This document shows positions 3,944-18,260 of a stretch of DNA of 25,166 bases, piece by piece. This DNA comes from a virus, in the IMG/VR virus record IMGVR_UViG_3300030329_000221, positions 1 through 25,166 of that record, one strand, 5' to 3'. A model generated the notes under the pieces. The model did not search any database. It was not told the DNA's origin and saw only the letters and a list, made by a program, of their open reading frames with translations. Position 1 is the first letter of the stretch. Each line of letters opens with the position of its first letter. Position numbers and translations under genes: made by a program.

Positions 3944-4294
3944 ATGGACAAACGAACAGAACGAACACAAGACAATAAAGAACTATTATTAAAAGCATTA
4001 CAAAAATCTTTAGGAATAGTAACAGAAGCTTGTGAAAAAGCAGGACTAAGTAGAACACAACATTACAAGTGGTATAAAGAAGATGAAGAATATCGTAAGC
4101 AAGTACAAGAAATAGATGGTATGTTTATAGACTTTGCAGAAACACATTTAAAAGAACAAATAGAAAAAGGCAGTACACCTGCTACTATATTCTATTTAAA
4201 GACAAGAGGTAAAAAGCGTGGTTATGGTGATAGCTTAGATATAACATCAGACGAACAAAGAATACAGATCCATATTGACTTGGGAGATGAATAA
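3944..4294 (+). CDS. terS: Terminase small subunit-like protein
   Basis: 116 aa with an N-terminal helix-turn-helix (LLLKALQKSLGIVTEACEKA ... GLSRTQHYKWYKEDEEYRKQ, residues about 14-51), a helical oligomerisation segment and a C-terminal segment around TPATIFYLKTRGKKRGYGDS. This matches the small terminase/phBC6A51-like HTH layout and lies directly before the large subunit, as expected. It recognises the packaging site and hands DNA to TerL. The acidic tail overlaps the terL start by 8 bases. Confidence 0.8.
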   Translation: MDKRTERTQDNKELLLKALQKSLGIVTEACEKAGLSRTQHYKWYKEDEEYRKQVQEIDGMFIDFAETHLKEQIEKGSTPATIFYLKTRGKKRGYGDSLDITSDEQRIQIHIDLGDE

Positions 4295-5603
4295 AAGGTT
4301 AAAACCTAAATTTACACCAAAACAAAAAGAATGTTTTAAATATCTATTAGACAATTCTACAAAAGAGATATTATTTGGTGGTGCAGCTGGTGGTGGTAAA
4401 TCCTGGTTAGGTGTTAGCTATTTAATTACTATGTGTTTAACATATCCAAAAACAAGATACTTAATGGGTCGTAGTAAATTAGACGCATTAAAAAAAACAA
4501 CACTAAACACTTTTTTTGAAGTATGTACAGCTTGGAGTTTAAAAGCTATTGAAGATTACACGTTTAACGGATCAAGTAATATAATCACTTTTTATAATGG
4601 CAGTGAAATAATATTAAAGGATTTATTCTTATATCCAAGTGATAGAAACTTTGATAGTTTAGGATCATTAGAAATTACAGGTGCTTTTATAGACGAAGCT
4701 AATCAAATAACAGAAAAAGCTAAAAACGTAGTAGCTAGTAGATTAAGATATAAGTTAGATGAAAACAATTTAATTCCTAAGTTACTAATGACTTGCAATC
4801 CTGCAAAGAATTGGGTGTACACATCATATTATAGACCAGCACAAGAAAAAAAATTAAAACCATATAGAAAGTTTATACAAAGTTTAGTAACAGATAACCA
4901 ATATATTAGTAAACATTACGAACAACAACTATTAGAGCTTGATGAATTAACAAAGCAACGTCTATTATTTGGTAATTGGGAATATGACGCAACACAAGAT
5001 AGTTTAATAGATTATAATTCCATTGTTAGCTTATTTGAAACAAAAGGTACTGATGGTGATAAATATATAACTTGTGATGTAGCACGTTTTGGTAGCGATA
5101 AAACAGTTATAATGTTTTGGCAAGGGTTACACCTTAAGTATATAAGAACGTTGCTTAAATCGGCTATAAATGATGTTGTAGAGGATATTAAGAAGATACA
5201 GCAAGAAAACCAAGTACCATTAAGAAATGTAATAGTAGATGAAGATGGAGTGGGTGGTGGTGTAAAAGATTATCTAAGATGTCAAGGGTTTATAAATAAC
5301 GCAAGAGCATTAAAGAACGAAAACTATCAAAACTTAAAAACACAATGTTATTATACTTTAGCTAAAAAAATAAACGAAGGACAATTAGGAATATCTTGTA
5401 GTAATATAAATACTAAGAATGACATCATAGAAGAATTAGAGCAAGTAAGAACTAAAGATGCAGATAAAGACAATAAATTACAAATACTATCTAAAGATAC
5501 TGTAAAAGCTATGATAGGCAGATCACCAGATTATGCAGATGCTTTAGCTATGCGTATGTACTATGAAATAGATAGTAATTATGGAAGGTATTTTGTACAA
5601 TAA
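4287..5603 (+). CDS. terL: Terminase large subunit (packaging ATPase and nuclease)
   Basis: 438 aa. The ATPase domain has Walker A GGAAGGGKS (31-39), Walker B AFIDEA (133-138, D136/E137) and a coupling motif LMTCNP (167-172). The nuclease domain has D264 in ITCDVARFGSDKT, the acidic pair in VIVDEDGVGGG (316-324) and D415/D418 in RSPDYADALAM. It pumps DNA into the prohead at the portal and cuts the concatemer. Start ATG 4287 gives an 8-base overlap with terS; an in-frame TTG at 4275 is less likely. The portal gene is not next to it, as is common, but about 14 kb downstream. Confidence 0.97.
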   Translation: MNKRLKPKFTPKQKECFKYLLDNSTKEILFGGAAGGGKSWLGVSYLITMCLTYPKTRYLMGRSKLDALKKTTLNTFFEVCTAWSLKAIEDYTFNGSSNIITFYNGSEIILKDLFLYPSDRNFDSLGSLEITGAFIDEANQITEKAKNVVASRLRYKLDENNLIPKLLMTCNPAKNWVYTSYYRPAQEKKLKPYRKFIQSLVTDNQYISKHYEQQLLELDELTKQRLLFGNWEYDATQDSLIDYNSIVSLFETKGTDGDKYITCDVARFGSDKTVIMFWQGLHLKYIRTLLKSAINDVVEDIKKIQQENQVPLRNVIVDEDGVGGGVKDYLRCQGFINNARALKNENYQNLKTQCYYTLAKKINEGQLGISCSNINTKNDIIEELEQVRTKDADKDNKLQILSKDTVKAMIGRSPDYADALAMRMYYEIDSNYGRYFVQ

Positions 5604-5699: not shown

Positions 5700-6344
5700 A
5701 TGAAAGTAAAAATCAAGAAAAAAGGTAAAACAAAGAAATATAATGTAATAAGTAGTTGGAGTGAAGTAACGTTAGAGAAGTGGATTAAATTGGCAGAACT
5801 TCAGGGATTAAGCAATAGTGAAGAAGCTTTAGAAACTATCAAGATAATGTCCGATATACCTGAGAAGTTAATAAAGCAGTTATCAATACCTGCATTATCA
5901 GTTATATTAAACAGGTTAAGTCAATTACAGGCAGAAAGAAAGGTTAATCTACAAAAGATTATAAAAGTTGATGATAAAGAATATGGATTTCACCCAAATT
6001 TAAGTGAAGACCTAACTTTAGGTGAATGGGCAGATATAGAGCATTTTATAAAAGAGGGAGTGGAAAATAATTTGCCACAATTAATGGCTATATTATATAG
6101 AGAAATAGTAGAAAGAGAAGGTGAAGCATATATCATAAAAGCTTATGATGGAAATATAGATGTAAGGGCAGAAAAGTTTAAAAAGATGAAAGCAGAACAA
6201 ATAGAAAGTGCTTTAATGTTTTTTTTTGCTTTCGTAAAAGAGTTTTTAAGGATTTTGCCATCATCTTTGATGGATCACACGAAGGAAATGATAAAGTTGA
6301 CACAGACGAAACATTTGCAGAAAAGTGGGGCTACTTTGGATTAA
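5700..6344 (+). CDS. Tail assembly chaperone-like protein, short (unshifted) form
   Basis: 214 aa, probable gpG-type tail assembly chaperone that coats the tape measure during tail building. Visible features: basic N-terminus (KVKIKKKGKTKKY), the helical segment WSEVTLEKWIKLAEL (20-34), YGFHPNLSEDLTLGEWADIE (about residues 95-114), and MAILYREIVE. This layout recurs in Bacteroidetes phage proteins placed before tail genes. Near the end the frame reads ATG TTT TTT TTT GCT, a T9 run where a -1 slip leads into a second open frame (see long form). It is the first gene after the terL spacer and has the TTTCTATA motif before it. Chaperone identity rests on the frameshift layout and family resemblance; the tape measure is unusually far away. 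Confidence 0.7.
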   Translation: MKVKIKKKGKTKKYNVISSWSEVTLEKWIKLAELQGLSNSEEALETIKIMSDIPEKLIKQLSIPALSVILNRLSQLQAERKVNLQKIIKVDDKEYGFHPNLSEDLTLGEWADIEHFIKEGVENNLPQLMAILYREIVEREGEAYIIKAYDGNIDVRAEKFKKMKAEQIESALMFFFAFVKEFLRILPSSLMDHTKEMIKLTQTKHLQKSGATLD

Positions 6345-6481
6345 TGTACAGATTGTGTAATGCTGATATTTCTAAATTAGACAAAATAACTAAACTAAAT
6401 GTATTAGAAGCATTTACTTGGTTAAGTTATGAAACAGATTTAAGTTCAACAAAACAAGTTAATATAAATGGCAATAACTAA
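5700..6481 (+). CDS. Tail assembly chaperone-like protein, long -1 frameshift form (gpGT-like)
   Basis: After codon 176 (TTT, 6225-6227) a -1 slip would continue at TGC 6227-6229 and stay open to TAA 6479-6481, giving about 260 aa. The -1 extension reads like true protein: acidic DGSHEGNDKVDTDETFAEKW, then GYFGLMYRLCNADISKLDKI and LNVLEAFTWLSYETDLSS, a helical layout like the T part of phage GT chaperones. It exactly fills the otherwise unexplained 6345-6467 stretch and ends 14 bases inside the next gene. No good independent start exists for it (first in-frame ATG at 6344 would give 45 aa). The slip itself is inferred. Confidence 0.7.
6219..6227 (+). other. Slippery T9 run for programmed -1 frameshift
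   Basis: Nine consecutive T follow ATG in the zero frame (ATG TTT TTT TTT GCT). The heptamer T TTT TTT satisfies X-XXY-YYZ for a -1 slip, with tRNA re-pairing fully preserved. A 6-bp stem CCATCA/TGATGG (6258-6263 with 6268-6273) lies 30 bases downstream, farther than usual for a stimulator. Confidence 0.65.
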
Positions 6482-6953: not shown

Positions 6954-7021
6954 TGTTTAAAATAAAAATAGGAAAATATAAAATAGAAATAGGTTTTTTT
7001 AAAATTACTATAAAATTATGA
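6953..7021 (+). CDS. 22-aa micro-ORF made of three 7-residue repeats
   Basis: A 22-codon ORF coupled at both ends: its ATG overlaps the upstream stop (TAATG) and its TGA overlaps the next ATG (ATGA). After Met it reads FKIKIGK / YKIEIGF / FKITIKL, a 7-residue repeat with strict alternation of large hydrophobic and polar residues, as in an amphipathic beta strand. The DNA is an imperfect 21-bp tandem repeat. It could be a real micropeptide or merely a translational bridge; the regular protein pattern favours some coding role. Too short for homology by eye. Confidence 0.4.
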   Translation: MFKIKIGKYKIEIGFFKITIKL

Positions 7022-7224
7022 CAGAAATATTTGAGTTGATAGAAAGTTATGGTGTAACCTTAGTGCTTTTAATTGGTGCTTTTTATGCTTTATATCAATT
7101 CTTTTTTTTTAGCATTAGAGAAGTTAAGAAAACATTTGAGAAACACCACGAAAAGAACGCAGATAATATGCAAGAAGTAAAAGACAAATTAAATAAAATT
7201 TTAGAATTAATAAAAAATAAATAA
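7018..7224 (+). CDS. Small membrane protein with coiled-coil tail, holin-like (BhlA/UviB-like layout)
   Basis: 68 aa: short N-terminus MTEIFELIESYG, one hydrophobic helix (VTLVLLIGAFYALYQFFFF, 13-31), then a charged heptad-like tail (EVKKTFEKHHEKNADNMQEV) to the end. The layout resembles BhlA/UviB-type holins, but it sits among tail genes, far from the lysis genes at 22.6-24.3 kb, where better holin candidates lie. It may have another membrane role. Coupled to the micro-ORF by ATGA. Confidence 0.5.
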   Translation: MTEIFELIESYGVTLVLLIGAFYALYQFFFFSIREVKKTFEKHHEKNADNMQEVKDKLNKILELIKNK

Positions 7225-13576: not shown

Positions 13577-15127
13577 ATGGCAGATAAAATAGAATTAAAC
13601 GCAGATATAAAAACTAACATAGGTGAAGTAGCTAAAGATGCAGGAGATTTAGCAAGTGAATTTAAAGTGATGGGCGTTAGCTTAAATGATATTAAAAAAG
13701 GATTTATAACAGTAGGTGCAACTGCAAAAAAATCTTTTGCAACTGTAAAAGCTGGATTAATGAGTACAGGTATTGGTGCGTTAATAATAGCAATAGGATC
13801 TTTAGTAACTTATTTTACACAAACAGAAAAAGGTGCAGAAAAATTAAAAGTAGCTTTTGCTGGAATAAGCGCAGCAGTGAGTGTAATAGTAGATAGAATA
13901 GCAAACTTTGGTGGTGGAATAATGAAGCTTTTTACAGGAGATGTAACAGGGGGCTTAAAAGATATGAAAAACTCCTTTAAAGGGATAGGTGAAGAAATAA
14001 AAGAGGATGTTAATTTAATGACACAATTAGAAAAACAGACTAATGCTTTAAGAGATTCAGAAAGAGATTTAAGTGTAGAAACTGCAAATAGAAGGGCAGA
14101 AATAGAAGAATTAAAAATGATTGCAGAAGATGTTACTAAAAGTGAAGAAGAAAGATTAGAAGCAGCAACAAAAGCATTTAACATAGAACAAGATCTATTA
14201 GACAAAAGAGTAGAAAATGCAGAAAAAGCAGTAGAGATAGCACAACAACAAGTAGATGCTTCTCATAGTTCAGAAGAAGATTTAGATAATCTTGCACAAT
14301 TAGAAATAGACTTAGCAAACATAAGAGCAGAAAGTGCTACTAAACAAATAGAGTTAAATAATAAAATAAACGCAATAGAAGCAGAAACAGATAGAAAGAA
14401 ACAAGAAAGACATCAACGAGAAATAGATAGAATACAAAAGGAAGCAGAAGAAAGAAAAAAGGCGCAAGAAGACCAATTAACACAAGCAATGACATTTAAT
14501 GATGCCCAATTAAATTTAGAAACCCAATTAAATTTAATGAGAGCTAGAAACTCAGAAGAATACCGAGATATAGAATTAGGCGCACAGTTATTAGCAGAAA
14601 ATGAAGCTATCACTAATCTAAAAATATCAGATGATGAAAAGCTACGCTTAAGAAAGTTATTAGCCCAAAAATTTAAAATAATAAGAGAGCAAGATAGTAA
14701 AAACGCAGAACTTGTAGCAGAACAAAGAGTAATGGCAGAAATACAAGCTTATGGGCAATTAGCAAGTGCATTAAGTTCTTTTGCAGGTGATAATAAAGCG
14801 TTAGCCGTAGCAAGTGCCGTTATAGATACTTATGCAGGTGCGACTAAAGCTTTTGCTCAGGGTGGTACATTAGGATTCGCTACTTCTGCTGCTATAATCG
14901 TACAAGGTCTTGCTAATGTTAAAAGAATAATGGAAACAGATATACCAGGCGCAGAAGATTCAGTAACTACTGAAGTGCCAGGACCACAATTTGTAAGTGG
15001 AGCTTTTGATTTAAACAATATGGGTGGTGGAATAGAACCTGAACCTGTACCAGCTTATGTATTAACAGATGATATGACTAATAGTCAAAACAAATTAGCT
15101 ATAATTAGACGTAGAGCAACAATCTAA
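13577..15127 (+). CDS. Tape measure protein
   Basis: 516 aa, highly helical. N-terminal MADKIELNADIKTNIGEVAK, hydrophobic helix LMSTGIGALIIAIGSLVTYF (61-80), a long Glu/Lys/Ala coiled-coil middle (about 140-400, with EERKKAQEDQLTQ and ERHQREIDRIQKEAEE), then a hydrophobic segment near the end (AYGQLASALSSFAG, AVIDTYAGATKAFAQGG, ATSAAIIVQGLANVKRI). This is the phage tape measure pattern. By the usual ~0.15 nm per residue it would give a short tail of roughly 77 nm. It should be coated by the chaperone encoded at 5700, over 7 kb upstream instead of adjacent. Confidence 0.9.
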   Translation: MADKIELNADIKTNIGEVAKDAGDLASEFKVMGVSLNDIKKGFITVGATAKKSFATVKAGLMSTGIGALIIAIGSLVTYFTQTEKGAEKLKVAFAGISAAVSVIVDRIANFGGGIMKLFTGDVTGGLKDMKNSFKGIGEEIKEDVNLMTQLEKQTNALRDSERDLSVETANRRAEIEELKMIAEDVTKSEEERLEAATKAFNIEQDLLDKRVENAEKAVEIAQQQVDASHSSEEDLDNLAQLEIDLANIRAESATKQIELNNKINAIEAETDRKKQERHQREIDRIQKEAEERKKAQEDQLTQAMTFNDAQLNLETQLNLMRARNSEEYRDIELGAQLLAENEAITNLKISDDEKLRLRKLLAQKFKIIREQDSKNAELVAEQRVMAEIQAYGQLASALSSFAGDNKALAVASAVIDTYAGATKAFAQGGTLGFATSAAIIVQGLANVKRIMETDIPGAEDSVTTEVPGPQFVSGAFDLNNMGGGIEPEPVPAYVLTDDMTNSQNKLAIIRRRATI

Positions 15128-17663: not shown

Positions 17664-18260
17664 ATGGCGTGTACAGCTTTAACAAAAGGAAGACAATTAT
17701 CCTGCGATAGAATTGCAGGTGGTATAAAAAACGTTTATTTTGGAGTTTATGATGAGTTTGATGCAAATGCAACAACAGGAGAAGTGTATGGTACAGGAAT
17801 AGTAGTGTCCACAGGTGAAATAACTGATATAGAAATGGGTTCTAACTCATTATACAGATATTCTTTACCAAGAGGTGAATCTAGCTTAACGGAAACGATA
17901 GTAGGTTCAACTGAAAACGGAACTATATATTATACACCACAAATAACTATTAAATTGAATCAATTAACTAAAGAAGACCAGAACCAATTACGTCTTTTAG
18001 CTTTAAGTAAATTAGTAGTATTTGCAGAATTAAACCAACTTAATAGCTCAGGAAGAAATATTATCGTAGGAATGGGCTTACGTAATGGAATGAGATTAAA
18101 TAGTGGTACTGATGTATCAGGTGCTGCTTGGGGAGATCATAATGGTTATAATTGGACTTTAGACGGAATGGAAGAAACTCCAATGTGTATGGTAGCAGAT
18201 TATAGTGCTACACCATTTGATAACGCAGCATTTACAATGGGTGCAATAGTAATAACATAA
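17664..18260 (+). CDS. Major tail tube protein
   Basis: 198 aa. The start MACTALTKGRQLSCDRIAGG (1-20) then IKNVYFGVYDEF is a recurrent start of Bacteroidetes phage tail tube proteins (MAC.l..Gr...C....GGik.vy...). Beta-rich with IYYTPQITIKLNQLTKEDQN (about 93-112) and NIIVGMGLRNGMRLNSGTD toward the end. It should stack into the tail tube around the tape measure. It is placed directly after the major capsid gene and bracketed by two hairpins, which sets it apart as an independently controlled unit. Confidence 0.8.
   Translation: MACTALTKGRQLSCDRIAGGIKNVYFGVYDEFDANATTGEVYGTGIVVSTGEITDIEMGSNSLYRYSLPRGESSLTETIVGSTENGTIYYTPQITIKLNQLTKEDQNQLRLLALSKLVVFAELNQLNSSGRNIIVGMGLRNGMRLNSGTDVSGAAWGDHNGYNWTLDGMEETPMCMVADYSATPFDNAAFTMGAIVIT

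Follow-up and report, generated by a model that had tools for sequence, protein, structure and literature searches.

The window analysed here is a complete IMG/VR virus record of 25,166 bases with a G+C content of 31%. It contains a gene, here called G, whose zero frame is interrupted in no way by an internal run of nine T residues (T9), while past this run the -1 frame stays open as a second coding stretch, called T (Table 1). The two reading frames and the run are placed exactly as a preliminary description of this DNA had placed them, and the interval 6345-6467 is, as stated there, otherwise empty, the next gene beginning at 6468. A shift into the -1 frame at the run would join residues 1-176 of G to the T extension (about 84-86 aa) in a product of 260 aa, GT, as against 214 aa for the unslipped protein. 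The -1 frame is already open 36 nt upstream of T9, so the slip could in principle sit slightly upstream of the run.

Table 1. Genes and features at the G/T locus and its surroundings in the window
Feature	Position	Strand	Remarks
Terminase large subunit	4275..5603	+	Pfam Terminase_3, 1.5e-13; upstream neighbour of G
G, zero-frame product, 214 aa	5700..6344	+	phrog_32199; proposed tail assembly chaperone
T9 slip site, window codons ATG TTT TTT TTT GCT	6219..6227	+	GG-T9 in most relatives
T extension, -1 frame, from first codon past the slip to TAA 6479-6481	6227..6481	+	conserved as protein in relatives
TAA in the +1 frame right behind the T9 run	6235..6237	+	sequence
T-domain conserved core FAEKWGYFG...LSYETDL, -1 frame	6314..6442	+	helical, low-confidence model
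Next gene, 161 aa	6468..6953	+	overlaps the -1 stop
Tail length tape measure protein	13577..15127	+	phrog_3336, 1.4e-6; phrog_1538; proposed partner of G

Relatives were collected by two separate scans of IMG/VR, one for the zero-frame protein and one for the -1 peptide, and the two resulting sets overlapped almost wholly. Altogether, these scans found 149 loci that carry both proteins. Both frames are conserved at 116 of 116 distinct sites of this first set, the second protein always lies in the -1 frame, and the junction is T9 at every site but one, which has T10. The set was enlarged by scans from a Nonlabens phage, from profiles, and by two IMG/VR scans with free run length. Among the 368 distinct sites of the enlarged set, 360 have T9, 8 have T10 and none has a run of another length; four T6 rows in its listing represent second runs farther downstream in the -1 frame, and at least one of the genes concerned (L454) is also counted with T9. 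The slippery site, whose conservation in homologues the preliminary description had proposed as a check, is therefore present as T9 or T10 at 368 of 368 sites. The enlarged set forms 141, 55 and 12 clusters at 80%, 60% and 40% identity, respectively, and the G proteins of relatives diverge to approximately 21-23% identity. Hundreds of relatives are known from marine and freshwater phages, and the only annotated ones belong to the isolated Nonlabens phages P12024S and P12024L (23% identity). The hosts of the lineage are probably Bacteroidota. A scan of genome contigs returned only three (L154-L156), in metagenome bins of unrelated organisms (a euryarchaeon and Pseudooceanicola), which are probably misbinned phage contigs.

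The length-free scans gave exactly T9 at 115 of 118 and 114 of 115 loci, in a set that is subject to selection because these scans demanded the flanking bases; the Nonlabens set is likewise subject to selection, one peptide used for it (FFYHLGND) spanning the slip site. Four loci of the length-free scans deviate from T9. Two of them (L397 and L561) are unrelated matches and not relatives, and the other two (L421 and L431) are true relatives with GG-T10 and one added codon; in both, an ATG stands in the -1 frame directly behind the GG-T10 run. As a background, long open reading frames at the same loci contain 12 runs of nine or more T in 2.08 Mb. Judged from these sequences, the T9 run with its -1 frame is neither chance nor error. 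A stop in the +1 frame occurs within 15 codons past the run in 140 of the 141 clusters, so that the products of one-base deletions would terminate at once.

Past the run, it is the -1 frame that is kept as protein. When the overlap was read in both frames, the mean pairwise identity was 56% in the -1 frame and 39% in the zero frame (37% in the +1 frame), and upstream of the run the zero frame shows 53%. Since the -1 identity is the highest past the run, the -1 product is the constrained one there, and the zero-frame tail looks largely passive. The -1 frame encodes the same 'KWGWY' domain in relatives. Gene spacing follows the same frame: the start of the next gene falls no more than 30 nt from the -1 stop in 369 of 371 cases, and the gene overlaps that stop in 353; it is close to the zero-frame stop in just 46. 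A zero-frame protein together with a -1 extended form that carries a conserved new domain, as in G/GT pairs, was found at all 116 sites of the first set and at 368 in total. This conservation supports the programmed -1 recoding, with a short and a C-terminally extended product, that the preliminary description had proposed. In a freshwater relative (L257:4992-5755) and others similar to it, the zero-frame tail past the run is 82-87 codons long, so that approximately 250 bases can be read in either frame and the stops of the two frames are near each other.

Three explanations that dispense with programmed slippage were weighed against these data. T might be a gene of its own, started from within G, the two proteins being made separately with no slip. 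A TTG, GTG or ATG is indeed available in the -1 frame at 201 of 372 sites, and the T homologue of phage P12024S, P12024S_39 (L153:14519-14686), was probably annotated from an internal ATG. However, a start codon of any kind is absent at 171 of the 372 sites, the stretch from the upstream -1 stop to the conserved W motif contains an ATG at only 16, and most of the TTG codons are the final bases of the run itself. Conservation of the -1 protein begins at the run, with FFLxFR; in P12024S_39, too, the -1 frame is open back to T9 and the conserved reading starts there, upstream of the annotated start. A separate gene would also leave the fixed T9 unexplained. We rejected it on the start-codon counts and regard it as very improbable. 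A second possibility is phase variation, in which changes of T-run length in the DNA would toggle GT on and off, an idea also raised in the preliminary description. Replication slippage can mutate homopolymers, but within the same flanks neither T8 nor T10 was encountered among hundreds of contigs, the exceptions to the fixed length being sites at which further changes preserve the frame of G, and both products are apparently kept in frame by selection. With no length variants within fixed flanks, such switching is not supported and appears hardly credible. Finally, homopolymers are error-prone on some platforms, and the arrangement could stem from a fault in assembly or sequencing or from a broken gene. 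The same organisation recurs across hundreds of assemblies made independently, as well as in two phage isolates, and we regard the error reading as refuted by this conservation and give it practically no credence. Neither a separately started extension in homologues nor an erroneous T run, both of which the preliminary description had envisaged, is thus borne out by the relatives.

The protein families give few direct indications of function. G matches well only phrog_32199 and some T members match phrog_38404; neither family has an assigned function in PHROGs or an entry in Pfam. The predicted fold of G (pLDDT 78) resembles those of many uncharacterised phage proteins and of a protein of Flavobacterium phage 6H, and weakly matches one annotated tail assembly chaperone (E 0.012, prob 0.98), while a search of the PDB with the same fold returned nothing. 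The model of the T domain is of low confidence (pLDDT 64), so its fold matches are weak. Membership in the P2 gpE family (Phage_TAC_7) was considered and rejected: the hhalign probability is 0.2, with no profile relation, and 2 of 50 members gave a Pfam match to it that lies below the cut-off. In phage 6H, the weak fold relative of G (L333:10044-10927) lacks a T9, and its end shows a confused order of frames; behind it lies a -1-frame ORF without an annotated start, an arrangement that reflects either another recoding or sequencing errors.

The gene order around G is more informative. The 161-aa neighbour lies directly downstream of G/T in 135 of 141 clusters, a gp10-like gene (187 aa; gp10-like by our reading of its sequence) occurs in 113, and a terminase homologue occurs upstream in 36. 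A tape-measure homologue was found about 6.9 kb downstream in 12 clusters, and in only 15 is the sequence long enough for one to be seen. The preliminary description had been correct in placing the tape measure approximately 7 kb away, but its view of the module as displaced does not hold, since 12 of the 15 informative clusters share this order, which is therefore normal for the lineage. This synteny supports a role of the locus in morphogenesis. Taken together, the architecture, the synteny and the weak fold match suggest, by analogy with known pairs, that G and GT act as tail assembly chaperones. Elsewhere in the window, a 198-aa protein (17664-18260; phrog_19091, a family without assigned function) adjoins a putative major capsid gene and is, by our reading of its sequence, possibly the tail tube.

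The position of the run relative to the codons is not constant among relatives. Four codon arrangements were seen at the slip site. Nearly all relatives have NTT TTT TTT T[GG/AY/GC], six cases including the window have NNG TTT TTT TTT GYT, and CTT TTT TTT TTC T and ATC TTT TTT TTT TAT are the two T10 arrangements. On a tree from a quick, short search, with an alignment that includes the slip site's own columns, the arrangement switches 9-10 times, at least six of these switches being required by branches with strong support, and the T10/TTC form arises at four places. The run length stays 9 or 10 through every re-phasing; the amino acids of the two T10 forms are compatible with T12, yet a synonymous C ends the run at T10. 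The slip signal is thus independent of codon phase, with GG-T9 retained through at least six re-phasings.

A similar independence is exhibited by the bases in front of the run. The two bases 5' of it are GG in 116 of 141 clusters irrespective of the codon, with the window as an exception (TG, 6217-6219). Leucine before the run is encoded by NTG (TTG or CTG) in 69 of 72 cases compared with 26% in the background, serine by TCG in 12 of 12 compared with 6%, and in the re-phased form the GG is supplied by CGG or AGG. Keeping the GG entails the use of rare codons (TCG, CGG, CTG). Likewise, the wobble T's of the run are fixed, though TTT accounts for 72% of Phe and GTT for 36% of Val codons in these genes; as a control, [VLI]FF[WYC] motifs outside slip sites are too few (n=14) to be of use. 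A one-base change of the run in a fixed setting would already throw G out of frame, and T is favoured by hydrophobic residues; the weight of the nucleotide-level argument lies on the synonymous positions and the re-phasing.

A ribosome reads codons, and its signal is expected to hold phase with them; RNA polymerase does not read codons, and its signal need not. Polymerase slippage suits a run whose length and 5' GG are retained even as its codon phase changes. The published properties of such runs point in the same direction. T runs of more than eight count as motifs for transcriptional slippage (PMC3711429). In many bacteria, selection against runs starts to show at nine, and a run length conserved in homologues is the mark of purposeful slippage (PMC1088944); the locus has an A/T homopolymer of at least nine whose length is conserved in homologues. 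One-base insertions predominate in A/T runs and rise exponentially with length (PMC5574713), and one inserted U is exactly a -1 shift. A downstream stem-loop stimulator was rejected: among pseudoknot-free folds, no RNA structure was found 3' of the run (mean z about -0.3 just 3' of the run), and no consensus structure emerged across 51 aligned sequences. The re-phasing, the fixed synonymous positions, the lack of a stimulator and the published T9 length together favour the polymerase over the ribosome.

We therefore lean slightly towards a G/GT-type tail-chaperone pair that is made by -1 recoding, with RNA polymerase slipping on T9. The polymerase would slip back one base on the run and add one extra U, after which ribosomes would read straight into the T frame. 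Most mRNAs would yield G by zero-frame reading, whereas a fraction read -1 from T9 would give GT, in which a helical T domain of about 85 aa replaces the zero-frame tail. If the pair works as in lambda, binding of the tape-measure protein would fall to G and recruitment of the tail-tube subunit to the T part, with the slip rate setting the G:GT ratio. For the broader proposition, that a large aquatic lineage of tailed phages fixes the proportions of its tail chaperones through slippage of RNA polymerase on a frame-blind GG-T9, and not through frameshifting on the ribosome, we see an even chance.

The same pair could be made by -1 ribosomal frameshifting, two tRNA-Phe slipping in tandem on T TTT TTT, either unstimulated or helped by some further element. 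An in-frame X XXY YYZ heptamer, T TTT TTT, is present in every codon arrangement observed, so that the sequence never excludes a ribosomal slip; lambda-type pairs slip on the ribosome (PMC5009743), and P2 gpE/E' does so on T TTT TTG with GG in front. The heptamer named in the preliminary description is in frame everywhere, but the frame-blind GG-T9 fits slippage by the polymerase at least as well as a slip of the ribosome. Against a ribosomal slip stand the missing downstream structure and the GG-T9 that holds its length while shifting codon phase, which a codon-reading machine does not need. Seven T's would suffice for it, yet neither T7 nor T8 was found at the 368 sites or in the length-free scans, and U_UUU_UUU is a weakly shifty ribosomal site in E. 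coli (PMC5009743). On balance, we hold ribosomal frameshifting to be a real possibility with somewhat less than an even chance.

When compared to known systems, the locus resembles lambda gpG/gpGT in its short protein and -1 extended form within the tail-gene region, in an extension that is encoded in the interval from the zero-frame stop to the next gene, and in the proposed fixed ratio. It differs in the slip site (T9 as against GGGAAAG), in showing no detectable sequence relation to that pair, in its place after the terminase and about 7 kb ahead of the tape-measure gene, and in the proposed use of RNA polymerase where lambda uses the ribosome. With P2 gpE/gpE+E' (Phage_TAC_7, PF10109) it shares a -1 shift on a GG-preceded T run (GGTTTTTTG in P2); however, the P2 run consists of six T with a TTG codon, the P2 pair directly precedes its tape-measure gene, and a profile comparison showed no relation between the two pairs. 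Genes 38 and 39 of Nonlabens phage P12024S (phrog_32199 and phrog_38404) are homologous to G and T, with a T9 junction, T in the -1 frame and a position after the terminase, although the record lists two hypothetical genes with the recoding unrecognised and the identity of G is 23%. Thermus dnaX (A9), Shigella mxiE and IS elements with A9 likewise make two products from a conserved A or T run some nine bases long, and in these transcriptional-slippage genes a one-base insertion is equivalent to -1 (PMC1088944, PMC3711429). None of them is a tail chaperone, and polymerase slippage at the present locus is our proposal.

A recoded gene pair can now be recognised in two PHROG families without assigned function, in hundreds of marine and freshwater phages. 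As the recoding has gone unrecognised, current annotation either overlooks the second product or gives it the wrong start. Polymerase slippage, if it occurs, would place the control of the G/GT ratio at the level of transcription, and the same phage trick would have been reached by two machines. This would be new for this kind of gene; our literature search, which covered only a minority of subscription journals, found no paper linking transcriptional slippage with tail chaperones. The several natural re-phasings make the signal unusually good for telling polymerase from ribosomal slippage.

The window contains a second coding T9 run at 7102-7110, within an ORF (7018-7224) for a 68-aa protein with an N-terminal hydrophobic stretch. 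Its context is CAA TTC TTT TTT TTT AGC, and one additional T leads to an immediate TAG, so that slippage there would truncate the protein.
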